Source: a virus. Taken from it: DNA of 20,904 nucleotides. Under the pieces are notes generated by a model that was given only the letters and a program-made list of their open reading frames with translations, searched no databases and had not been told where the DNA came from. Location: positions 1 to 20,904 of IMG/VR virus record IMGVR_UViG_3300025640_000074, one strand, 5' to 3'. Of this stretch, positions 5,135-16,461 are shown in pieces. Within the stretch, counting starts at the first letter, position 1; every line of letters begins with the position of its first letter. The position numbers and the translations under genes are program-made.

Positions 5135-7678
5135 TTAGTTGTCTGTATACAGCTTCTTACCCAACTGGATGTTGGTTGCTACGTCTGTCTTTGACATGAT
5201 GTCTTTAAGCATTTCCTGCGCTTCTTCGTCTCTTGCTCCAGCTTCCCACTGGAACATAGCGATAGCCGCTTCTGCTAATTGTTCATCTGTCAGTGCAGCA
5301 GCAGGCTTAAACCCTGTCTGCTCAACCACGTATTTCTTGTAATCCGATGGGTTTCCTGTGGCATATTTATTGATAAGGTCATTGACCGTTGGTTTAACCT
5401 TACGATGCTCCATCCAGAAGCCAAGATACTGAACTCCCTGCTCGATGGTATCGAACGAGGGGGTGTCAATACGGCCACCCGAAGAGGCCTTCAGGTTGAT
5501 AGAGGATTTCTCGCCAAAGGCTTTCTTAAACTTAGCCGGTCCTTTACCGTTAGTAATCCTGCCGATTCCGCCAAAGTTAAACGTGCGGATTGAGGCCGGA
5601 ACTTTCTTACCTGAAGACTGTGTAGGGGACTTCAAGTTGTCGATCCCGAGTGTCTCCCGATTAAGCCCTGTTTCCGACGGTGCATCCAGTTCGAAGATAG
5701 GTTCACGGGAGTTTATAATCCCATCACCATCATCGTCCTGCAGAGCTTCTCTAGTGAGACCCTGAGCTTCTTCAAAACGAGCCATAGCCGCAGCAGGGTT
5801 ATCTACACCCAAGTTACGCTCTAGAGCGTCAGCTACGCTTTCTCCCGGTTGCTGCTCATACGGGTTGACATCGATCAAACCTACAGGCCCAAAATTGTAA
5901 GCAAGCTCCAAGTCCTCATCGGTGTCGGTGACAGGTATCAACGCATTTTCGTACTCAACCAGCATCTGGATCATTGATTCATCAGCGAAGTATTTACGGA
6001 AGATTACATTGTTAGAAAGCATCAGAATATCTGACGGGTCTTGGATTTTTTTGTTCAACTCTTGGCGGATAGTTACATCGTCCACGGACCCGAACTGTCC
6101 GTCCAGAATGTAACCCGAAGACTGGTCCATGATATTGTTTAGAAATTTATCTACAGTTCCCTCAGCTAATGCTTTTTTCCAGCCTGCAGAATCTTGTTCA
6201 ATAAGATCTCGAATTTTGGCTTCATACTGGCGTTTGATCTCAGATCGAGAGAGTGTTGTGGTTCCCGTAACACCCATAGACGTATCGCCCATTATCTGAC
6301 CAGCTAAGTCTGCCATCGCTGCAGAATCCTTTAGAAGAGACTTCACGAAAGGATGTTCGATTGCTTCAGGAACCTCAGGAACAAAACTCATTAGTTTTAT
6401 GCCATCTGCTTCCGTCAGGCTTGATAGCCTTCCTGCCATGAACCCACTTCTGTCAAAGTCTGGTTTAACAATTTCTTCAGCAAGTTCAGCCTTAAACACC
6501 ACAAGAGATTGTGCAGATTGACCTTTAGAGAAGGGATCGTCATCTGCGAAAGTTTTGGCACTAATATATGTTTGCTGTATGTCTTTGAACTCTTTCCACT
6601 TTTCAGTTCCCTCCTCACGTCCAAACTGTTCCCTAAAGGCAGGTAAGTAAGAACCAATCTCGGCTGTATTACCCGGATCACTCACGCTAGCGTACTGGCC
6701 TTCTAGGAACGCTTTGTTTGATTCGTTCTGTTGACGTTCCTGCTCTGTAGCCGCAGCCTTCACCGCCGCAGAATAGTCACGTTGAGCGTCCTTGAAAGCC
6801 GTTTTCATTGACTCTTGAGCGCCGCCTTGCCCCGAACCAAACTGGTCCATGAAGTCTTCATTACTCATTAGCTGCGTAGCATAATCTAAAACCCGTCCCG
6901 CATGTTCTAGGTCCGACTGCCACACTACCTCTTTAAGTTCAGTGGAGAAGACATCTAGGAACATTGCGTTACCTCGCTCCCTTCCTTTAATCCCCACCAT
7001 CTGCTGACGATGTTCCAGCAAGCTCGCGCCATATTCCAAATAGTCACCAGCTTCGTAAGCAGAGCGTCTTACACCCTTTTCAAAGTTGGATATAATCTCT
7101 GCATCGGCACGTTGAACCGCCAGTGCATCACTTTCAGCCAGAACTTTAGCTGCTAAAGGGGCAAACCGGGCCAAAACTTCAGGGCGTAGCTCCGCTGGGG
7201 TACTCTCGATACGTTCCTGAACGAAGGTAGAAAGCTGGTCTTGCAGCGCAGCGCGGCCCTGAGGGTTCCCATAGTTATCGTCTTGCTGAATGGTACTCAT
7301 CATACCTACAAGGTCTTCATCTAGTTGTCCGATGATGTTGCTTTCATTGTACGCCATCAGATTAGCTGGATTGTTCCAGAACTGATCAATGTACTCATCA
7401 CCTGTAACAGCGGACAGTGCGCCCAATTGAGAGGCAAGCTCTTTCTGCTGTTGCTGATACGCCAGAGAATCTTTGTATTCGTCGTTACGCTGTCGCTCTG
7501 CCAAACGAGACTCGTTGGAGGCTATACGTCCAAGGCTAGAGTTAATCTGTGAGAATGCCTTAGCGAGCATTCGGGAGTTTTGATTGTCGAGTGCGGGGCG
7601 CATGTACTGAGCGCGGTTACCCACCTCACCAGACGCTGCTCCACCCCGGCCCTGTATTTGTACTGGACCTCTTACCAT
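5135..7678 (-). CDS. Internal virion protein, gp15-like, with C-terminal muralytic-like domain
   Basis: An 847-residue protein, about 100 residues longer than T7 gp15 (747), in gp15 position between gp14-like and gp16-like genes. Residues 1-640 are mainly helical, Gln/Glu/Ala-rich, with no catalytic motif seen, as expected for an inner-core ejection protein. Residues 648-659 (DDDGDGIINSRE) fit the 12-residue EF-hand loop: Asp at 1, 3 and 5, Gly at 6, Ile at 8, Glu at 12. Residues 691-820 match the 220-aa protein encoded at 15046-15708. Both contain PAS(I/V)R followed by an N-x-G-x-I-G segment, a KP...(Y)ATGN/YSTGN stretch, and the motif WEAGAR (811-816 here). The pattern resembles phage structural lysozyme-like domains that begin R-N-N-P-G-N-I. 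Start ATG: AGGA 8 bases upstream, just after the gp14-like stop. The core assignment is by order and size; enzyme activity is inferred. Confidence 0.75.
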   Translation of the reverse strand: MVRGPVQIQGRGGAASGEVGNRAQYMRPALDNQNSRMLAKAFSQINSSLGRIASNESRLAERQRNDEYKDSLAYQQQQKELASQLGALSAVTGDEYIDQFWNNPANLMAYNESNIIGQLDEDLVGMMSTIQQDDNYGNPQGRAALQDQLSTFVQERIESTPAELRPEVLARFAPLAAKVLAESDALAVQRADAEIISNFEKGVRRSAYEAGDYLEYGASLLEHRQQMVGIKGRERGNAMFLDVFSTELKEVVWQSDLEHAGRVLDYATQLMSNEDFMDQFGSGQGGAQESMKTAFKDAQRDYSAAVKAAATEQERQQNESNKAFLEGQYASVSDPGNTAEIGSYLPAFREQFGREEGTEKWKEFKDIQQTYISAKTFADDDPFSKGQSAQSLVVFKAELAEEIVKPDFDRSGFMAGRLSSLTEADGIKLMSFVPEVPEAIEHPFVKSLLKDSAAMADLAGQIMGDTSMGVTGTTTLSRSEIKRQYEAKIRDLIEQDSAGWKKALAEGTVDKFLNNIMDQSSGYILDGQFGSVDDVTIRQELNKKIQDPSDILMLSNNVIFRKYFADESMIQMLVEYENALIPVTDTDEDLELAYNFGPVGLIDVNPYEQQPGESVADALERNLGVDNPAAAMARFEEAQGLTREALQDDDGDGIINSREPIFELDAPSETGLNRETLGIDNLKSPTQSSGKKVPASIRTFNFGGIGRITNGKGPAKFKKAFGEKSSINLKASSGGRIDTPSFDTIEQGVQYLGFWMEHRKVKPTVNDLINKYATGNPSDYKKYVVEQTGFKPAAALTDEQLAEAAIAMFQWEAGARDEEAQEMLKDIMSKTDVATNIQLGKKLYTDN

Positions 7679-7682
7679 CTTA

Positions 7683-8318
7683 TTATCCTACATAAGGGTT
7701 CATTGCTTGGCCCATGAAGCCGCCGCCCGTGCCGCCGCCCATGCCGCCGCTCATCATGGACCCCGGTACTTGACCAATCTGGCTCATGCGCTGCTGCTGG
7801 TAGTTATTGTTCTGTCCTTGGATCATCAGTGATGAGAACCCATTAACGACAGGGGCCAACATCGCCATCGTGTCACCAGCCGTCCAGCGGCCTTGCATCA
7901 CGGTGTTGATCTGGTTGACTTTGGTTACCTCAAGGTTGTGCAGGTCCATCTCGTAGGCATCTGCAAGGTTCTTACGCTCATCAATAAATCGACGGGCATC
8001 CTTGGACCATTTGCCCTTAGCATCGTTGATCGTTGCACGGATAGACGCACCACCGAGGTTAGAACTACCCGCCTGAGCCGATAGGTTTGACTCGGAGAGC
8101 TTCCCCATGAGTTCGAAGTCGAACCCTTGCTGTCGAATCTTTTTGTTATTCTGCAGGAACTTCAGGGAGGAAGTTTCTACCGCTGCGCCGTAACTGGCTT
8201 CAGCAGCTAATTTGTTAGCTTCATACTGTCGGTTTTGTTCTTCGATCCGCGCTTTCGATTGCGCAGCCGAGGACATCATTCCGAAGCCCATTTGGAGTAC
8301 CTGACCGATACCACACAT
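7683..8318 (-). CDS. Internal virion protein, gp14-like
   Basis: A 211-residue protein starting MCGIGQVLQMGFGMMSS; T7 gp14 (196 aa) likewise starts Met-Cys followed by a hydrophobic Ala/Gly-rich segment. A long charged helix follows (AQSKARIEEQNRQYEANKLA), and the C-terminus is Gly/Met-rich (GSMMSGGMGGGTGGGF). In the T7 family gp14 is the first core protein ejected and forms the outer-membrane pore. A longer reading from 8396 exists, but the ATG at 8318 is favoured. It has TAGGAG about 9 bases upstream, lies one base after the stop of the gp13-like gene, and gives the Met-Cys start seen in the family. The next gene follows after 4 bases. Confidence 0.78.
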   Translation of the reverse strand: MCGIGQVLQMGFGMMSSAAQSKARIEEQNRQYEANKLAAEASYGAAVETSSLKFLQNNKKIRQQGFDFELMGKLSESNLSAQAGSSNLGGASIRATINDAKGKWSKDARRFIDERKNLADAYEMDLHNLEVTKVNQINTVMQGRWTAGDTMAMLAPVVNGFSSLMIQGQNNNYQQQRMSQIGQVPGSMMSGGMGGGTGGGFMGQAMNPYVG

Positions 8319-8319
8319 A

Positions 8320-8844
8320 TTATTTGCTCCTAAGGATTGGATGAACTGGTTCACCGCTAGGGTGAGCCACGCGGTCAAAGATTTCGAAGCCGACAAACTC
8401 CACCCACTTTAGGTGTAACTCGTTGTCAGCATGGACGAAGTTGTAGATTTGGCTATGGTCACCCTGAAGTATCTCAACTTCATCTCGGGAGACCCGTAAA
8501 AACCCCATGACGTGCTTATCTACTGCTGTACTGCCCAAGCCCCAGACGATGCCGTCTTTGGTGGTCCCGTACATGATCAGTGGGGTGTCTTTGTGGGAGA
8601 GCGTCCGACATACTGTGGACTGCTCAAAACATTCTGTCAGGGCTTGCTTAGGCTCCTGCCCTGATAGGAGCATGATCTCACGTCTATCAGCGTGGCGCAT
8701 CGAGGCCGCAATAGCCCCGATGTCACCTTGTGTCGCTGGGCGAGCGTTATACTCGCCGCGCGTGAGGGTTGTGTTTGCCGAACCAATCGACGTGGAGGAT
8801 CGTGCAGCCGAATGGGCTGTCGTTCCTGAGGGTAATTTCTGCAT
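8320..8844 (-). CDS. gp13-like internal virion/assembly protein, start uncertain
   Basis: Up to 174 codons in the position of T7 gene 13, between tail tubular protein B and gp14. The C-terminal half resembles T7 gp13: residues 134-157 (NFVHADNELHLKWVEFVGFE and on) align by eye with its N-Y-V...N...H...L...G segment. Residues 35-50 (RPATQGDIGAIAASMR) look like the first strand and helix of an acetyltransferase-type (GNAT) fold, as proposed for gp13; a retained catalytic role is not shown. The only ATG before RPAT is at 8844, with GGAA 8 bases upstream, and this overlaps the 3' end of the tubular-protein-B gene by 98 bases. The first 33 residues are Ser/Thr/Ala-rich and may just be the shadow of that gene. 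The next ATG is at codon 49, inside the conserved region. The body is confident, the start is not. Confidence 0.65.
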   Translation of the reverse strand: MQKLPSGTTAHSAARSSTSIGSANTTLTRGEYNARPATQGDIGAIAASMRHADRREIMLLSGQEPKQALTECFEQSTVCRTLSHKDTPLIMYGTTKDGIVWGLGSTAVDKHVMGFLRVSRDEVEILQGDHSQIYNFVHADNELHLKWVEFVGFEIFDRVAHPSGEPVHPILRSK

Positions 8845-11800
8845 TATCGTTCCGAGTCATTACAGGCACACGCAATGTCCCTGAAGATTTCGGGAGGTCA
8901 CCAAAGGTTGTCGACGTGTAGCCTACGCGAGGGCCAGCATGATATGTTTTGGCTGGACGCCCACGGCTTGAGACATCCACAGAGAACGTGGCAGTGTCAG
9001 TGTAGGCAATGTTGATATAGTTGATTGTCAGTCGCCCATCGGTAACCAAGATTTCACCCTGAGGTTTCCGAGGCGCCCTCATGTAGAGGGTCGAGAGCTT
9101 CACCTCCATATCGTAGGGAATGCCCACAACAAGATCATCAGCCGAATAATCTCCCTTAACGAAGAGGTTTCCACCCTCCGTATAGCGGTCGATATTTACG
9201 GTATGTCCGCTGGTCAAATCCCACACCTCTACGAGGTTGGTCCCGTCATAGGGAATGGTTAGAAGTGTCTCTGGGTCACCGCTTGAAGATATCCCACTCT
9301 GATAGAATGTCTTTGTTGGGGTTACCTGCATATCGAGACGTAGCAACTCATACCCAAATAGGTCTGGTTGATCGCGAACATCAATCTTAGTGAGTTCACG
9401 CTCAGTTCCAAGGGAAGACACGCAGTAGAGATAGTTGCCGTAGATTCCGATAGATTCGATATCTCCGATACTCAAATCCCAGCGGCACCACGCAGATTGG
9501 ACCTTAGTTTGTCCGTCATACTCGAACTTGTAGACCCAGATAGATTGAGGGTCTGCTCGATTGAGTACAAAGACAGTTTTATTGTCGCGAGATGCTTGGA
9601 TGTAGCGAGCATCACCCGTAATGAACTGCGGACACTGGATCGTTAAATCCGAGGACAACAATCGGTCATCTTGAGCAGCACCCAAGAAGAACTCACGGGC
9701 TTGCGTGTATCCGCCAATTTCAGCCGTAAAGAAGGCAGACTGACCGATGGCATGGGGACGAACCGCTGTTGAGGTTTGGTAGTCTCCGATTTGCTTGGCT
9801 GAGACTGTTTTAGGTGTCAGAGCTTGGGAGTTCGAGTTGAGCGAAAACTGCCCCTTATCGGTAAACAGCAAAAGCTCATCTTGAACGGCCAACGCTGCGT
9901 GGACTTGCTCTACACGACCAAACCGCAACTCAACGTCAATCCTATTGTCGTCTTCAAGTTGTATGCAGGTAGAGCGGTAAAACTGCTCATAATAATTAAC
10001 CTCTGACAGGACCACGGACTCACCAGCGCAAACCCCGAGCCGACCTTGGAACAAGAACAAATCAGTGATGCCCTTACCCAGAAAACTTGGGGTCTCATTC
10101 GCTATAGCACTACCAACCTCTCGGCCTCGCCAGTTATATGGCTCTACACTCCAGTTACCATCTGATCCACGCACCAGAGCTTGTGGCATCGTGGAGGTGT
10201 CAAACTGTTCTGCTGATTGTGGTGCTAAGGTCTCAGTCCATCTACCGTCCTGATACGTGACAAAGTAGTCATCTTCATCCGTTGCGCTCTGGCCTGTAAT
10301 CTGTACTACCTCACCATCGGATCCTTTGTCGGCTAGGTCGTCAAAGTCTGTAACCTTACGGCCCGAGAAAGTTGGAGTGACCTCACTGATCGGTAAGTTA
10401 TTCAACAGTTCATTGACGCCATAGATGAAGAAGTCTGTGGTACTTGAGATCTTTATCTCACCTGTGTTTGCGTCGTAAGACGTGGTGGATAGGTCTACTT
10501 GAAACTGAGTACCCTCACTGTCCGTTGGCTGGAACAGGTTGGAGCCTCCTTGGCCTTGGAGCATATAGACGATATTCATATTGGTAGTGGCCGCATCGGT
10601 AGAAAAGTCAATCTTAGTTCCCGTGTATTTCTTAAAGAACCGCTCCGTAGCACCTGTAGACAGAACTCGGTCATGTCCAATGATGATCTCAAGTCTGTAG
10701 TTATTCGGGTTTGCAGTGTTCTGCGGAAACACAGACTGACTTTTGGCGCTACTGCCACCAGTAAACGCGGAGTACGTCGTGTAGGTCGCCCCATTGAAGA
10801 TCTCATACGCATTACTGATGTAGCAAGCTGAGTCAGTGGCAATTGTGACATTACCCGCTGAGTTCGAGCTGGCACTAGTTATCCCGAGATAATGAGTAGT
10901 ACCCTCGCTATCAATAGCCTCCATTCTGTTACTACCTGTCAAGGAGGCAAGACGTGCCGCATAGATATCCGCGTATCTAAGCGTATGACCCGTGACGGTA
11001 TCTGTGGATGCTACGGCCTGACCATCTCGCAGTTGTAAAGCAACGTGAGTTACCGCTGCACTGCTAGACGCAGCGTCGCTATTGGTTGAGCGTAGAACCT
11101 TGTAGCCATTGGAAACATTGAAATTATCACCAGACTCAGTAAGACCGCCACTGATGGCAGCAGCCGCTACAGAGAACGCAGGGTCCGTCGAATCTAGGTT
11201 GATCCAAGATCCCGTGACGTTCGAGAAATTGCTTACGTTCGAGTAGATGCTTATCGGTCTCCCGCCCAGTTCATACAGACCACGGCGATAAACGAAGTCT
11301 CGTTGGGTAGGAGCCGCTTCTCCAGTCTCCCACTCCGTTGCGCTGCTATAGTTTGAAGATACGTAAGCATTGGTTCCACTAAAAGTGGTGTAGCGATCAG
11401 CCTTCCGGTAGTACCTTTGATCATAGGCCGCTGTAGTCCCTAGCGGATAATACGTCAGCGTTTCCGTCGTGTTGTCAGATAGCGTTACGTCTTGCTTGAA
11501 CTCTAGGACAGCTTTGTACACTGAGTCGGAAGTAAAAGGCACCTCACTGGTCAATCGATCCATGAGATCCAAAGTAACCGCGTGGTTCGTTGCTTCGTTA
11601 CTAACAACGGTGTCAGTCTGGATTGCTGTCGTGACGTTCTTGTTCGCGAGGAAGGTATAGTCCCCAGCCGTCACCGCACGAATATTTGTGCTAGGATCGG
11701 TGCTTGTCAGGTAAGCCGCGCTTGTGGGGTTTACCGTGACAGACTGCTGGACTCCGTTGAGATCATAGACCTCGACTGATCCATCGCTATTCGTGATGAC

Positions 11801-12034
11801 AGAGTATTTTTCCGCCTGATCACGATCAATCGTGTGATGGAAGCTGGTGGTTCCTAAAGCAGAGGAAGTCAGGCTTGAAACGAACTCAGCGCCCCTTCGT
11901 TTAGATAACCCTTGGATAGCCGATGGATAAGCATTGACCATCGTTTGGGTAGCTTCCTTAATACGGGTTTCGGGCGGCTGCTGGGTAATGCCCCCCGTCA
12001 GCTTGCCAATATGATCAGTGATCTGTGCCATCAT
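8747..12034 (-). CDS. Tail tubular protein B (nozzle), gp12-like
   Basis: A 1095-residue protein whose N-terminus (ITDHIGKLTGGITQQP, residues 5-20, then GLSKRRGAEF) is the signature start of T7 gp12, where ISQSIKNLKGGISQQP is followed by GLQKRPP. A second family segment lies near residues 663-710 (DLFLFQGRLGVCAGESVVLS...DDNRIDVEL). By family, six copies form the distal tail nozzle and attach the fibres. It is about 300 residues longer than T7 gp12 (794); the extra material is Ser/Thr/Asn/Asp-rich beta-type sequence in the first 600 residues. Two ATGs are in tandem (12034, 12031). AAGGA lies 4 bases before the first and 7 before the second. The first ATG overlaps the stop of tubular protein A as ATGA, implying coupled translation. 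The 3' end overlaps the gp13-like gene. Confidence 0.92.
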   Translation of the reverse strand: MMAQITDHIGKLTGGITQQPPETRIKEATQTMVNAYPSAIQGLSKRRGAEFVSSLTSSALGTTSFHHTIDRDQAEKYSVITNSDGSVEVYDLNGVQQSVTVNPTSAAYLTSTDPSTNIRAVTAGDYTFLANKNVTTAIQTDTVVSNEATNHAVTLDLMDRLTSEVPFTSDSVYKAVLEFKQDVTLSDNTTETLTYYPLGTTAAYDQRYYRKADRYTTFSGTNAYVSSNYSSATEWETGEAAPTQRDFVYRRGLYELGGRPISIYSNVSNFSNVTGSWINLDSTDPAFSVAAAAISGGLTESGDNFNVSNGYKVLRSTNSDAASSSAAVTHVALQLRDGQAVASTDTVTGHTLRYADIYAARLASLTGSNRMEAIDSEGTTHYLGITSASSNSAGNVTIATDSACYISNAYEIFNGATYTTYSAFTGGSSAKSQSVFPQNTANPNNYRLEIIIGHDRVLSTGATERFFKKYTGTKIDFSTDAATTNMNIVYMLQGQGGSNLFQPTDSEGTQFQVDLSTTSYDANTGEIKISSTTDFFIYGVNELLNNLPISEVTPTFSGRKVTDFDDLADKGSDGEVVQITGQSATDEDDYFVTYQDGRWTETLAPQSAEQFDTSTMPQALVRGSDGNWSVEPYNWRGREVGSAIANETPSFLGKGITDLFLFQGRLGVCAGESVVLSEVNYYEQFYRSTCIQLEDDNRIDVELRFGRVEQVHAALAVQDELLLFTDKGQFSLNSNSQALTPKTVSAKQIGDYQTSTAVRPHAIGQSAFFTAEIGGYTQAREFFLGAAQDDRLLSSDLTIQCPQFITGDARYIQASRDNKTVFVLNRADPQSIWVYKFEYDGQTKVQSAWCRWDLSIGDIESIGIYGNYLYCVSSLGTERELTKIDVRDQPDLFGYELLRLDMQVTPTKTFYQSGISSSGDPETLLTIPYDGTNLVEVWDLTSGHTVNIDRYTEGGNLFVKGDYSADDLVVGIPYDMEVKLSTLYMRAPRKPQGEILVTDGRLTINYINIAYTDTATFSVDVSSRGRPAKTYHAGPRVGYTSTTFGDLPKSSGTLRVPVMTRNDNAEITLRNDSPFGCTILHVDWFGKHNPHARRV

Positions 12035-12700: not shown

Positions 12701-13819
12701 TTATACGTCAGCAGCCTTACGAACTTCGTAGAGGCAATCAGGGCGAAGCGTTGCAGCACCCATAAGAAGCTTGGAAACGAGCAAAGTACCCTGCTTGGCA
12801 ACTGAGTATTCGGACTCAGTGGTGAGGTCTTGCAACTTAACCATGCCGAGACCTTCTGTGTGCATAAACAAACCAAGGTTGTCAGATGCATCCACAGCAT
12901 AGTCTTGGCCGAAGCCATCTGTAGGTACGCCAGCGTCTGCACCGTTAGGGGCATTCAGCGGGGTACGGCTATCAGGGCCGGTGTTGGAGTTTGCAGTACC
13001 GTTAATCGCGAGGTGGTTCGTTGGTACAATGTTAAAGCCAGCAATCTTGTAGACTACTGCGTCACCGTAGTTACCGTTACCCGCAGAGAAATCAGAGTTG
13101 ATAATCGTCTTATCGTTCTGGTTAATCAGGGAGTAGTAGGTGCGTGGTGACACGTACAGGTGACGGCCATCCATAGGGATGTCATGCTCATCAAAGTACG
13201 CGGCAGCTTCAAACGCAGAGGTAACGAGTTCAGCAGCGCCAGCGCCTGTGCCAACGTGCTTCGTTACTGCGTTCTCCATGTCAACAATACCCTTACCAGC
13301 ACCAGAAGCGGCACCAGTGGCTGTTACGCCGGGAGCGCCAGGTACTTGTGCAGCGTTGAACTGGTCACCGAGACGTGCATCACGAATAGCCATCTGGAAC
13401 AAGGTACGCTCACAGGTGAGAGCCAAAGCTTGAGCCATCTGCTTGCTGTATTCAGCGCGGAACTCGAAGTGCGTCAGCATTTCGTCAATGTTGTTCAGGA
13501 ATACGCTGGATACCAAGAAGTCATCGATGGAAATCGTCTTCTCATCAGTCTTCATGGCCTGACCGACGATCTCTTGGCCGGGAACGAAGTGTTCAGCCTT
13601 AGCTTGGCCGATACCCGGGAATTGAGCGGTTTTGCCGCCTGAAATTGTACGGGTACGAATCTTGTCTTTGAGAGAAAACTTCTCATCAAAATGCTTTAGG
13701 ACTTCACCGCCAAAGGTTTTGAGCAGGAGGTCACGGGAGTTGTTGTAAGCGTTAGCGCCATCAATGGACGCAGGAAAGTTAGCTACTTGAGCTGGGGTAG
13801 GAGCGGCTGTCTGAGCCAT
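12701..13819 (-). CDS. Major capsid protein (T7 gp10-like, HK97-type fold)
   Basis: A 372-residue protein, slightly longer than T7 gp10A (345). Family-typical segments: NNSRDLLLKTFGGEVLKHFD (about 26-45), then FSLKDKIRTRTISGGKTAQF, FVPGQEI, KTISIDDFLVSSVFLNNIDE (about 94-113) and the helix EYSKQMAQALALTCERTLFQ. Near residues 155-200 an Ala/Gly/Pro-rich loop (VPGAPGVTATGAASGAGKG) looks like a flexible insertion. Ends with RPDCLYEVRKAADV. Known role: the shell protein, assembled on scaffold. The start ATG has AAGGA about 8 bases upstream in an AT-rich leader, consistent with strong translation. No clear slippery sequence for a T7-type 10A/10B frameshift was found near the end. Confidence 0.93.
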   Translation of the reverse strand: MAQTAAPTPAQVANFPASIDGANAYNNSRDLLLKTFGGEVLKHFDEKFSLKDKIRTRTISGGKTAQFPGIGQAKAEHFVPGQEIVGQAMKTDEKTISIDDFLVSSVFLNNIDEMLTHFEFRAEYSKQMAQALALTCERTLFQMAIRDARLGDQFNAAQVPGAPGVTATGAASGAGKGIVDMENAVTKHVGTGAGAAELVTSAFEAAAYFDEHDIPMDGRHLYVSPRTYYSLINQNDKTIINSDFSAGNGNYGDAVVYKIAGFNIVPTNHLAINGTANSNTGPDSRTPLNAPNGADAGVPTDGFGQDYAVDASDNLGLFMHTEGLGMVKLQDLTTESEYSVAKQGTLLVSKLLMGAATLRPDCLYEVRKAADV

Positions 13820-14064: not shown

Positions 14065-14295
14065 CTACTGGTTCCGAGAGCGGTTTGTGGATCTCTTTTG
14101 GATCCGCAGGTTACTCATGGAGTTGTTCTTTGGGTTGCGATCTTTGTGGTCGATATCCTTGCCACGAAGAGCCGCTTTACCCTTCTTTTTGATCATCAAT
14201 CGCCGTGCTTTCTTTCGCGCATCATTGCGACGACGCTGGGAAGGCTTTGACTGATAATTCTCGTATTCTTTGCGGTAGTTACGTTTAGTAGCCAT
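14065..14295 (-). CDS. Small basic HNH-like protein
   Basis: A 76-residue, very Lys/Arg-rich protein (MATKRNYRKEYENYQSKPSQ). Residues 46-64 contain GKDIDHKDRNPKNNS and then SNLR. This is the DH...D.NP.NNS..NLR pattern of the first half of HNH nucleases and of many short phage proteins. The terminal histidine and the zinc cysteine pairs are absent, so cleavage activity is doubtful. It may bind DNA or act with packaging or other HNH proteins; this is inference. The ATG at 14295 is preferred over an in-frame GTG at 14298: GGAGG lies 9 bases before the ATG. It overlaps the end of the o-spanin-like gene by 11 bases. It is the last gene before the capsid leader. Confidence 0.65.
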   Translation of the reverse strand: MATKRNYRKEYENYQSKPSQRRRNDARKKARRLMIKKKGKAALRGKDIDHKDRNPKNNSMSNLRIQKRSTNRSRNQ

Positions 14296-14515
14296 CACAA
14301 AAGGCCTCCCGTTTTGTGTTGTTCATGAAGACCTGACTGACGGTGCCTAAAGAATCGTACTTACTTGCGTAGAGGTAGTCCCATTGGCCGCACGCTTGCT
14401 CAATCCCTGAACCAGCCCTTGTCGCGCATCCGCTGATGCTGCTGATCAGGACTAAGACGCAGACCATCGGAAGCAGCGTCGAGAGCAGCGCGAGACCGTC
14501 TATCGGCGTCCTCAT
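14285..14515 (-). CDS. Probable o-spanin (Rz1-like outer-membrane lipoprotein)
   Basis: A 76-residue protein with a hydrophobic signal segment at 8-28 and a lipobox ISGC with the lipidated cysteine at 30. The mature part is only about 47 residues and has two more cysteines (42 and 73) that could pair. The gene starts inside the preceding membrane-protein gene in another frame and overlaps it by 116 bases; this embedded arrangement is diagnostic of Rz/Rz1 spanin pairs in many phages. The tail CGQWDYLYASKYDSLGTVSQ...N...FC resembles companions of short Rz-like proteins in alphaproteobacterial phages, where a C-x-W...S..D.L....Q...N....C pattern recurs. Start: AAGGAA about 8 bases upstream of the ATG. 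Known role: fusion of inner and outer membranes at lysis, with the inner-membrane partner. Confidence 0.62.
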   Translation of the reverse strand: MRTPIDGLALLSTLLPMVCVLVLISSISGCATRAGSGIEQACGQWDYLYASKYDSLGTVSQVFMNNTKREAFCDGY

Positions 14516-14651
14516 CTTCTTTTTCCTTGTGTTGTTTTACAGCGGCTCTTTGAGAGACAAAGACAACCGCAACCAGACCAAGGAATGCCGCAGCGACCTT
14601 GGCCTTACCTGCGTCAAACCAAGTGAGAATGAATGCTAATTGTTCCATCAT
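14400..14651 (-). CDS. Probable i-spanin (Rz-like inner-membrane protein)
   Basis: 83 residues, with one membrane helix near the N-terminus (about 19-33, VAAAFLGLVAVVFVS) followed by a charged, helix-forming tail (KQHKEKEDEDADRRSRAALD) and the end QRMRDKGWFRD. One N-terminal anchor plus a helical tail, with an Rz1-like gene embedded in its 3' half, fits an inner-membrane spanin. It is shorter than lambda Rz (153), so a holin or other membrane protein is a real alternative; no multi-helix holin was seen in the window. ATGA overlap with the preceding basic-protein gene (tandem ATGs at 14651 and 14648) suggests coupled translation. The ribosome binding site is weak (AAGAG). Confidence 0.58.
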   Translation of the reverse strand: MMEQLAFILTWFDAGKAKVAAAFLGLVAVVFVSQRAAVKQHKEKEDEDADRRSRAALDAASDGLRLSPDQQHQRMRDKGWFRD

Positions 14652-14899
14652 TTACGGCTCTTGGTTCCAGAACATTTCCATTTCGCCCGTGACAAACGCA
14701 GGGGTGAGTTAGGGTTCTTTGCAGCCTTGGAATGGGATTTCATCTGACCAGCGGACCTTGCGCAATACGCATCCCCTTTGGATGTTCCGGGGCGAACACG
14801 GGGTCCACCACCTTTTGCTTTTCCTGCTTGGCCGTAGCTTACTTTTTTACCCGAAGAAGTGACTTTTACGGACGCCTTGCCCTTAGCAGGTTTCGCCAT
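14648..14899 (-). CDS. Small basic conserved phage protein (83 aa)
   Basis: 83 residues, highly Lys/Gly/Ser-rich. The N-terminal half is low-complexity (SVKVTSSGKKVSYGQAGKAK). The second half carries a pattern recurrent in small phage proteins: PGTSKGDAYCARSAGQMKSH, then NPNSPLRLSRAKWKCSGTKS, with cysteines at 46 and 76. No catalytic motif is visible, and function is unknown; the charge and small size would suit nucleic-acid binding or a minor head component. It starts one base after the stop of the 47-aa gene (TGA C ATG) and overlaps the next gene by 4 bases, so it belongs to a tightly coupled string. Recognised as a recurrent family by pattern only. Confidence 0.7.
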   Translation of the reverse strand: MAKPAKGKASVKVTSSGKKVSYGQAGKAKGGGPRVRPGTSKGDAYCARSAGQMKSHSKAAKNPNSPLRLSRAKWKCSGTKSRK

Positions 14900-15045: not shown

Positions 15046-15708
15046 CTACTTTCCTTTCTGTGCGTTGAAGAGGCGTGACCAGAAAGACCGTTGAGGCTTC
15101 TCTGGGGGTTGGTACGTCATCTCTTCAGGTGTAACTTCGATGCTATAACCACCGTCACGCCAAGCTTCTCGCAAGCCGTGTATCATCCCCCAAAATAACT
15201 CATCGATCACAGCCTGATCAGACAGGTCGTAGACGATGTTGAAGGCTTCGAAGCCGGGAGCAGCGCTAGAACGAGCGCCTGCTTCCCACTTCCCCATAGC
15301 GACCATCACTTGGTACAGCCGGAGGTATCCCGCAGGGTCGCCCCATAGGTCGATCACCTCGTACATGCCAAGGCCAGCGTCGCGAGCTACAGTGTTACCG
15401 TAGGTGTCGGAGTTACCTGTGGAGTATGCCTTCATAATTGCAGCGATGTTCGTCTGCCCCGGCTTAACTTCAGCACGTCGAATGACGTAGTGTCCGTAAT
15501 AGGCCGCACCGCCATATACTGAGTTAAAGGCCGGGGTAGGTAATTGGGAACCATCTGAGGCAGGCAGTGTGGCTGTATCGATTGCGCCGAACCTTGCCTC
15601 ATGATTGTCACGACTGGCACCGATGGCCCCAATGTTTCGTAATCGAACACTGGCAGGCACAGACTTGTCGTGTAGGTCGTAGGCCCAAGGGCCAGTGTAG
15701 ATTTTCAT
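15046..15708 (-). CDS. Putative peptidoglycan hydrolase-like protein (220 aa)
   Basis: 220 residues. Residues 18-146 share a domain with the C-terminus of the gp15-like internal protein: PASVRLRNIGAIG here against PASIRTFNFGGIG there, then a KP...AYSTGN stretch, and the identical WEAGAR (141-146). The opening R-x-R-N-I-G-A-I-G recalls the R-N-N-P-G-N-I start of phage structural or lysozyme-like proteins thought to cleave peptidoglycan, with the WEAGAR Glu as a candidate catalytic residue. Residues 150-220 are specific and end in a basic, aromatic tail (FWSRLFNAQKGK). No signal peptide or membrane segment was seen. It lies at the head of the cassette holding the spanin-like pair, so endolysin is the leading guess; a structural virion protein is the alternative. 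AGGG precedes the ATG by about 8 bases. Confidence 0.55.
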   Translation of the reverse strand: MKIYTGPWAYDLHDKSVPASVRLRNIGAIGASRDNHEARFGAIDTATLPASDGSQLPTPAFNSVYGGAAYYGHYVIRRAEVKPGQTNIAAIMKAYSTGNSDTYGNTVARDAGLGMYEVIDLWGDPAGYLRLYQVMVAMGKWEAGARSSAAPGFEAFNIVYDLSDQAVIDELFWGMIHGLREAWRDGGYSIEVTPEEMTYQPPEKPQRSFWSRLFNAQKGK

Positions 15709-15717
15709 GGTGTAACC

Positions 15718-16461
15718 CTAGAGTTGCGATCGGCCCAGCTTTTGGACAACCGCATTATTGTACGCTGGGTCGGTGGAGTAGCGTGGGTCTGCCATCGCTT
15801 CCTTTACCTGCGCCCAAGAGTCGAAGCGGTCTGCTGAAGGGGCTTGACCACCCTCGATCTGTCGCACTGGATCAGACGGAGAGTTGGAGTTGCGGCGAGC
15901 CTGAAGGCCATTCACAGCAAGCTTAATTCCATCCACGTCGTTACTTTCAATTGTACGGTTAAATGCATCGATCTCACCTTCAGACAGGTTGTCCGAGGCC
16001 CAGCCAATCAGATCGTCGTAGCCTGTCCGACCGCCCACCGTAGACACAATGTCTTCTACTTGGCGCTCAACTACGGCCTGTTGACCTTCGATGTACTTGT
16101 CTACGACTTCCTTCGAGTACCCAGCCTTAGCCGCTGCATCGTAGGAGTCTGAGGACAACTCACCGCTCTCACGGTACTCCGCTTCCAGAGAGGGCAAATC
16201 CAAACCAGACTCACGCACAGTTTCTGCTGTCGGCACTGAGTCTGCTGGCGTGTCTCCAGCGCCCATCTTGCCTTCCAGCTCAGAGTACGCTTTCGCCATA
16301 TCCTCAGGGGACTGGAACTTTTCTGGTAGCCATTCAGGACGTGAGGAGGCAGCAGATTTCTCTGCCGCCGCCGCATCATGGGCTTCCTGTACGAGTTGAT
16401 CGGGGGTCTTCCCCACGGTCTCAGAACTCGTATCGATTGTGTTAGAGATTACTTCACCCAT
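15718..16461 (-). CDS. Capsid scaffolding/assembly protein, gp9-like
   Basis: 247 residues, acidic, Ala/Ser/Glu-rich and mainly helical, between portal and the capsid region as T7 gene 9 is. Typical features: a central PEWLPEKFQSPEDMAKAYSE segment (42-61) found near the N-terminal third of podovirus scaffolds, and a C-terminal segment FDSWAQVKEAMADPRY...AYNNAVVQKL, of the kind that contacts the capsid protein. Known role: directs procapsid assembly and leaves before or during packaging. The ribosome binding site is poor: GTGAG stands 11 bases from the ATG, after the double TAATAA stop of the portal gene. Confidence 0.85.
   Translation of the reverse strand: MGEVISNTIDTSSETVGKTPDQLVQEAHDAAAAEKSAASSRPEWLPEKFQSPEDMAKAYSELEGKMGAGDTPADSVPTAETVRESGLDLPSLEAEYRESGELSSDSYDAAAKAGYSKEVVDKYIEGQQAVVERQVEDIVSTVGGRTGYDDLIGWASDNLSEGEIDAFNRTIESNDVDGIKLAVNGLQARRNSNSPSDPVRQIEGGQAPSADRFDSWAQVKEAMADPRYSTDPAYNNAVVQKLGRSQL

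Follow-up and report, generated by a model that had tools for sequence, protein, structure and literature searches.

The DNA considered here is the virus record IMGVR_UViG_3300025640_000074 of IMG/VR, 20,904 bases in length (the window), from a marine, T7-like phage. The subject is a domain that occurs in two of its minus-strand products, an 847-residue gp15-like internal virion (ejection) protein and a protein of 220 residues (the 220-aa protein; Table 1). The minus-strand order begins with the genes for a MazG-like protein and a ribonucleotide reductase, two small open reading frames (ORFs), and the genes for the portal (head-tail adaptor), the scaffold, and the 220-aa protein. Next come a basic ORF of 83 aa, a pair of small ORFs that overlap, an HNH gene, and the major capsid gene, and finally the genes for two tail tube proteins, for two internal virion proteins of small size, and for the gp15-like protein, the gp16-position protein, and a tail fibre, whose ORF is truncated at the window end. 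When isolates are ranked by their portal proteins, the best are the Roseobacter phages CRP-804, CRP-403, and CRP-118 (49%), the first two of which are annotated as Autographiviridae. The labels gp15 and gp16 are given by gene order and size: the gp15-like ORF sits between a gp14-like ORF, which has a weak match to PHROG 805 (E 0.0038), and the gp16-position ORF, and neither the gp15-like nor the gp16-position protein has a family match worth naming in PHROG, Pfam, or NCBIfam.

Table 1. Positions of the features of the window (positions are those of the whole stretch).
Feature	Position	Strand	Basis or remark
gp16-position internal virion protein, 1453 aa	758-5119	-	only weak unrelated matches
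gp15-like internal virion (ejection) protein, 847 aa	5135-7678	-	named from position and size
C-terminal Enc34-type domain of gp15, residues 687-847 (shared core: residues 691-820, positions 5219-5608)	5138-5620	-	
gp15 Glu812 codon (E of WEAGAR)	5243-5245	-	aligned with Enc34 Glu131
gp15 Tyr780 codon	5339-5341	-	aligned with Enc34 Tyr95
gp15 Tyr772 codon	5363-5365	-	aligned with Enc34 Trp79 (aromatic)
DDDGDGII stretch before gp15 C-terminal module	5714-5737	-	same eight residues in G005; DDDGDGIS in G016
Major capsid protein, after cassette	12701-13819	-	PHROG 267, E 3.5e-66
HNH endonuclease, after spanins	14065-14298	-	PF13392, E 5.5e-7
Outer-membrane spanin (Rz1)-like lipoprotein, 76 aa, ISGC lipobox	14285-14515	-	PHROG 1275, Rz-like spanin, E 1.2e-4
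Inner-membrane spanin (Rz)-like protein, 83 aa, one membrane segment	14400-14651	-	architecture only, no PHROG match
83-aa basic ORF inside cassette, no membrane segment found	14648-14899	-	
220-aa Enc34-type protein, probable endolysin	15046-15708	-	fold, lysis-cassette position
Cationic C-terminal tail of 220-aa protein, last 24 aa, net +4	15049-15120	-	at the two-helix position of the long forms
Shared catalytic domain of 220-aa protein, residues 18-146	15271-15657	-	BLASTP, hhalign
220-aa Glu142 codon	15283-15285	-	aligned with Enc34 Glu131
220-aa Tyr103 codon	15400-15402	-	aligned with Enc34 Tyr95
220-aa Tyr95 codon	15424-15426	-	aligned with Enc34 Trp79 (aromatic)
Scaffold protein	15718-16461	-	PHROG 1052, head assembly, E 5.9e-58; PHROG 1018, scaffolding, E 8.2e-9

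The C-terminus of the gp15-like protein and the 220-aa protein have one domain in common. The two proteins are aligned by BLASTP at 32% identity and 47% positives over 144 columns (E 1e-17, in a single comparison), with a raw score of 154; when the 220-aa protein was shuffled 2000 times, 1947 of the shuffles gave a score, the highest being 69. Among the 74 ORFs of at least 60 residues in the window, this pair is the sole cross-ORF match at E ≤ 1e-3. A preliminary description, made by eye, had matched residues 691–820 of the one with residues 18–146 of the other; the motifs that it quoted are present, and both the motif sharing and the coordinates hold. The string WEAGAR, which it gave as identical in both, is indeed found in both window proteins but is not wholly invariant, since the gp15 homologue of L074/G016, a related contig, reads WEAGTG. 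The string as a whole is therefore ruled out as an active-site signature. Its glutamate is retained in all 13 rows of alignment A10.

The preliminary description had further likened both stretches to phage lysozyme-like domains of the R-N-N-P-G-N-I type, and profile comparison supports the assignment of the shared domain to the family of the Enc34 endolysin (PHA02564, R-N-N-P-G-N-I). A DNA pattern for R-N-N-P-G-N-I-R was found at seven virus loci, five of which have a motif-bearing ORF; these five make up alignment A6. In the PDB, the A6 profile matches two structures at E < 0.001, Gp29 of 9vvp (E 3.2e-20) and the Enc34 endolysin 7q47 (E 6.8e-13), and these two together with A6 constitute A7. 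With hhalign, alignment A5 (the gp15 domain and the endolysins) is matched by A6 at 87.0% (E 4.1e-6) and by A7 at 92.5% (E 4.7e-7), and alignment A4 at 73.7% (E 2.9e-5) and 83.3% (E 8.7e-6), respectively. Two gp15 domains alone, with no endolysin row, match A7 at 95.2% (E 2.7e-8). The matches to the set that holds both the RNNPGN and the Enc34 sequences thus lie at 83–95%, while A6 against the unrelated amidase-like alignment A3, taken as a control, gives 0.1%.

Relatives were surveyed in IMG/VR and in a phage collection, which hold few complete gp15 C-termini. Among 50,697 phage records, tblastn gives no match for gp15, either as a whole or for its domain, and none for the 220-aa protein; part of the L006 relative gives three records at E 8–10, which were taken as chance. 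The A2 profile gives six weak unrelated matches in the PDB, and phmmer gives two for the 220-aa protein and none for gp15. Two scans of genome contigs returned 44 and 94 stretches that fit the pattern, with no confirmed relative, and a scan for the gp15-type domain confirmed two loci out of 345 stretches, both on already known contigs. The family scans of the 220-aa type yielded two overlapping sets, of 22 loci (including the gp15 domain of the related record G002) and of 26 loci.

The model of the 220-aa protein has a predicted local distance difference test value (pLDDT) of 84.2 and a predicted template modelling score (pTM) of 0.81. Its only Foldseek matches in the PDB under E 0.001 are two chains of 7q47 (the next row is at E 0.49), and by VIA it is aligned with 7q47 over 142 residues with a Z of 10.7 and a root-mean-square deviation (rmsd) of 4.0, the next Z being 3.6. 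In BFVD, 15 rows have a probability of at least 0.8; five of these bear the name virion protein, one is called internal virion protein D and another tail-fibre/lysozyme protein, and the others have either no name or an uninformative one. The modelling argues strongly for an Enc34 fold in the 220-aa protein, and is only suggestive of one in the gp15 domain. As to the common fold anticipated in the preliminary description, 7q47 is the best match for both models, but the model of the gp15 domain is of low confidence.

In the Enc34 endolysin, Glu131 is assigned as catalytic and Trp79 and Tyr95 are conserved; the domain is muralytic, an N-acetylglucosaminidase activity is argued for, and a second, endopeptidase activity is considered possible, as far as described in PMC8943055. 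(In the PDB sequence these residues are numbered 132, 80, and 96, a constant offset of one.) By alignment, as distinct from superposition, Glu131, Trp79, and Tyr95 correspond to Glu126, Tyr86, and Tyr94 of the gp15 domain, which are Glu812, Tyr772, and Tyr780 of gp15, and to Glu142, Tyr95, and Tyr103 of the 220-aa protein. Across the 13 rows of A10, among which are both gp15 copies, neither the glutamate nor the two aromatic positions vary. That the two domains are catalytic, which bond they would cut, and when and where they would act are matters of inference.

A gap of 9 bases separates the scaffold gene from the 220-aa gene behind it, and the Rz-like and Rz1-like ORFs downstream of the 220-aa gene overlap by 113 coding bases. 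An Enc34-type gene is found in a cassette with Rz/Rz1 in the window and in L006, and a putative one in G016. In the Enc34 cassette described in PMC8943055, a holin-like gene precedes the endolysin gene and overlapping Rz/Rz1 genes follow it, and the endolysin (ORF39) carries a C-terminal two-helix tail. Six of the 11 family members examined are long forms (289–305 aa) with at least two C-terminal membrane-like segments, as in Enc34, and the other five are short forms (217–227 aa) with a cationic tail and no membrane segment. The protein of the window is a short form; it has an Enc34-type catalytic domain without the full Enc34 architecture. The two tail types, two-helix membrane and short cationic, possibly represent two routes to the periplasm. 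Because its gene lies between the scaffold gene and the overlapping Rz/Rz1-like pair, and because six of the 11 members have the two-helix tail, the 220-aa protein is most likely an endolysin. At the place of the 83-aa basic ORF, the L006 lysis cassette has a 76-aa counterpart.

A position so close behind the scaffold gene and among head genes would also suit a virion structural protein, in which case the fold would occur twice in the particle and lysis would fall to another enzyme. Such a role agrees with the annotation of structural or sequence relatives as 'virion protein' or structural protein (PHA02564 family), with the failure to recognise a holin in the cassette, and with the presence of early T7-lysozyme-like ORFs in the related records G003 and G016. 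A merely structural role is nevertheless rejected on the Rz/Rz1-like pair downstream and the two-helix tails of the family, and the amidase activity of the early ORFs is itself doubtful; moreover, TIGR02594, a CHAP (NlpC/P60-like) family, has no match in G002 and G003, both of which are possibly incomplete records. The structural alternative is therefore considered unlikely. The preliminary description had left the choice between 'lysis or structural protein' open, and the gene context favours the endolysin.

The early ORFs of G003 and G016 lie at L041:12689-13144 (-) and L082:18714-19160 (+). In both, the alignment with T7 lysozyme stops at residue 121–122, and no cysteine is found beyond. 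Because zinc binding in T7 lysozyme requires His122 and Cys130, these ORFs may be inactive as amidases, and perhaps they are polymerase regulators devoid of that activity. The lysozymes of CRP-804 and CRP-403 also look altered in this region by alignment, and Amidase_2 still matches them. The L041 copy has no ATG, GTG, or TTG start ahead of its conserved N-terminus.

The C-terminal slot of gp15 is modular, holding either an Enc34-type or a TIGR02594/CHAP domain, since two relatives, G005 and G013, carry the latter there. G005 has a 220-aa protein identical to that of the window, and its gp15, a homologue at 41–43% identity to that of the window, is 43% identical over residues 1–662, through DDDGDGII, after which it continues with TIGR02594 instead (E 1.5e-27; CHAP 1.3e-6). 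The gp15 C-terminus of G013 likewise matches TIGR02594 (E 5.8e-26), and both matches are above the curated cut-off. In G016, whose gp15 is 35% identical, the slot is occupied by the Enc34-type domain (E 1.6e-33 with the A5 profile), and G002, whose gp15 is 98% identical, has both domain copies, like the window. Neither the gp15 nor the 220-aa protein of the window matches TIGR02594, and a search of nine records gave TIGR02594 matches in two, both in gp15. For the proteins at the gp15 position in G011, CRP-804, and CRP-403, NCBIfam gives no family at E ≤ 0.001. With the same slot in G005 and G013 filled by a domain of another wall-active family, and with the glutamate and both aromatic residues retained in the two gp15 copies of A10, it is rather unlikely that the gp15 domain is a relic devoid of catalysis, or an anchor that binds peptidoglycan, instead of an entry enzyme, although its divergence, its low-confidence model, and the loss of the AR of WEAGAR in G016 would agree with such a state.

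Both modules also occur as free proteins in the wider phage group. In CRP-804, TIGR02594 makes up a protein of its own, gp40 (E 2.8e-32), which has a single strong membrane segment at its C-terminus and is likely an endolysin. The G016 contig opens inside a frame that reads IEATPEEPWVYETPKIPVEE, followed by two membrane-like segments, Rz-like and Rz1-like ORFs, HNH, and capsid; by eye, this frame would be the C-terminus of a long-form endolysin, the catalytic part of which would lie off the contig. A stretch of the DDDGDGII type, which presumably resembles a calcium-binding loop, precedes the exchangeable gp15 module whichever module follows. The first 78 residues of gp15 (window 7445-7678; L017) are identical in the window and G005, and the 677 aligned columns are 43% identical, which marks a sharp mosaic boundary.

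A tree of 19 rows (11 endolysins, 6 known RNNPGN sequences, and the 2 gp15 domains) was rooted at the midpoint, with several long branches and a small outgroup. The 11 endolysins cluster together (100/100), as do the 6 known RNNPGN rows (100/100). Between these groups fall the gp15 domains; they are split from the known RNNPGN set together with the endolysins (100/100), and they form one group of their own in only 6% of the bootstrap trees. By BLASTP, the gp15 domains of the window and G016 are 52.7% identical to each other, and the two are 29–38% identical to the endolysins. This fits an old split of the copies within this phage lineage, the branching order not being secure. The duplication suggested in the preliminary description is thus retained as an old event, while a recent duplication is rejected on the position of the gp15 domains outside the endolysin group. 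That the endolysin gene of the phage itself was recently copied and pasted onto gp15, a question of history only and compatible with the function favoured below, is very improbable: the gp15 domain of the window is nearer to these endolysins (29–35% identity) than to the tested Enc34, Gp29, and RNNPGN sequences, but it stands with that of G016 outside a group that takes in all 11 endolysins, and these two are the closer to each other.

The reading favoured here, with a probability of about 0.74, is that the two stretches are distant copies of one Enc34-type peptidoglycan-cleaving domain, serving in entry on gp15 and in lysis as an endolysin. One copy would make up the final 160 residues of gp15, beyond the DDDGDGII linker, gp15 being the tunnel-forming ejection protein to judge by its position. 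This copy would breach the peptidoglycan locally during the passage of the ejectosome across the periplasm, and would so take the job held in T7 by the gp16 N-terminus. In the gp16-position protein of the window (1453 aa), no muralytic domain was recognised, and the N-terminal placement of the T7 gp16 type is not seen. The entry role proposed for the gp15 domain is by analogy with T7, as its biology is described in PMC8954989. The second copy would be the 220-aa protein of a late lysis cassette (endolysin, Rz-like, Rz1-like), degrading the wall at lysis. Both copies would cut the glycan strand with one glutamate and two aromatic residues. The suggestion of the preliminary description that one genome carries the same fold as an entry enzyme and as a lysis protein agrees with the profile matches, the shared best match to 7q47, and the alignment of the motif glutamate with Glu131, the enzymatic activity being a prediction.

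A number of observations weigh against this reading. The gp15-domain model (pLDDT 64.9, pTM 0.62) is of low confidence, and its alignment with 7q47 by VIA (128 residues, rmsd 3.9; next Z 3.3) has a Z of 7.4, below the VIA caution level of 8; being built from an alignment that includes endolysin rows, it is not independent evidence. The hhalign alignments extend over only 60 columns (A5 and A4) or 76 columns (the gp15 domains) around the active site. The literal RNNPGNI motif is degraded in the window (PASIRTFNFGGIG), where the pattern is R-x-x-N-x-G-x-I and lies outside the columns aligned by hhalign; in the relative L043 it reads R-N-P-G-A-I. Neither protein has a Pfam or PHROG family at E ≤ 1, and NCBIfam gives no family of the Enc34 kind for either, gp15 having one irrelevant weak match. 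The 220-aa protein is without the C-terminal two-helix membrane tail. A7 against A8, the whole-gp15 alignment, gives 0.6%; this is an imperfect control, because only one of the three rows of A8 carries the Enc34-type domain, the other two having TIGR02594 in the same place, and the mixed columns hid the domain. No holin gene was recognised in the cassette of the window. The last two points, the imperfect A8 control and the missing holin, lower the confidence placed in the use of two copies for entry and lysis.

The closest known system is that of Enc34 ORF39 (7q47, PHA02564; as described in PMC8943055), which resembles the window in the fold, in the positions of the catalytic glutamate and the two aromatic residues, in the two-helix membrane tail of part of the family, and in the location of the gene before an overlapping Rz/Rz1 pair. 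The differences are that the structural alignments have 14–15% identity, that the gp15 domains have no BLASTP match to Enc34, that the RNNPGN motif is degraded and no holin gene recognised here, and that the form in the window is short and tail-less; furthermore, Enc34 is all-helical, whereas two strands are predicted in the 220-aa model. Gp29 (9vvp), internal virion protein D, likewise bears an Enc34-type domain on an internal virion protein, but at the N-terminus (residues 6–114 of 1295) and not, as in the window, at the C-terminus of a gp15-like protein. Its domain has a 99.1% tblastn match in a Kayfunavirus record, on which the Kayfunavirus link of 9vvp rests.

The TIGR02594 proteins share the gp15 slot in G005 and G013 and occur as a free membrane-segment protein in CRP-804, but they are of a different family, with presumed peptidase or amidase chemistry. 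In T7, entry and exit are served by two unrelated enzymes, the transglycosylase domain of gp16 and T7 lysozyme (gp3.5), which has a role in lysis; here one family would serve for both. In K1E and K1-5, according to PMC8954989, gp15-like proteins carry lysozyme activity and the hydrolase domain is movable between gp16 and gp15. They are therefore alike in having the wall-cutting activity on the gp15 type instead of the gp16 type of ejection protein, and the account of their lysozyme domain in PMC8954989 states no Enc34-type relation for it.

By tblastn, the Gp29 domain has 810 matching places in 802 of the 50,697 phage records, and the Enc34 domain has 741 in 737 records; among the matches listed are internal virion protein D, other structural proteins, and endolysins. 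The entry and lysis uses of the Enc34-type domain are thus each already known across phages. The places exceed the records by only 8 and 4, respectively, a comparison that covers close copies and not more distant second copies, and among the Gp29 matches listed, two have a second place, both at the record end. Within a narrow literature search, what is new is the divergent marine branch unnamed by Pfam, PHROGs, and NCBIfam, the place at the gp15 C-terminus, the exchange with TIGR02594, and the presence of both uses in one genome, which is seen in the window and G002 and presumed in G016.

It is somewhat more probable than the contrary that this phage lineage draws its entry and exit enzymes from one pool of modules (Enc34-type and TIGR02594), exchanged at the gp15 C-terminus and serving elsewhere as endolysins, so that the entry and lysis enzymes of one phage can be of the same family and yet have been separated long enough to specialise. 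The Enc34 endolysin family is extended to a divergent marine branch missed here by Pfam, PHROGs, and NCBIfam, and the C-terminus of gp15-like ejection proteins is marked as a slot for exchangeable wall-cutting modules. A natural pair with one fold for entry and exit in one genome would also allow brief local puncture and bulk lysis to be compared by domain exchange.

Some minor features of the neighbouring genes may be added. Tail tubular protein B (window 8747-12034) is long, with 1095 aa, and its best family-match stretch is residues 558–1095; in G003 (L018:1308-4780) it is split over two ORFs, 98% and 55% identical. The program-called start of the gp14-like ORF (7683-8396) is TTG, and the true start is probably the internal MCGIGQVLQ, because the relatives in L052 and L074 begin there. 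Integrase-like ORFs, recognised by eye, adjoin the phage RNA polymerase at L041:17664-18653 and L082:13663-14679, and in CRP-804 and CRP-403 an annotated integrase likewise lies beside the phage RNA polymerase.

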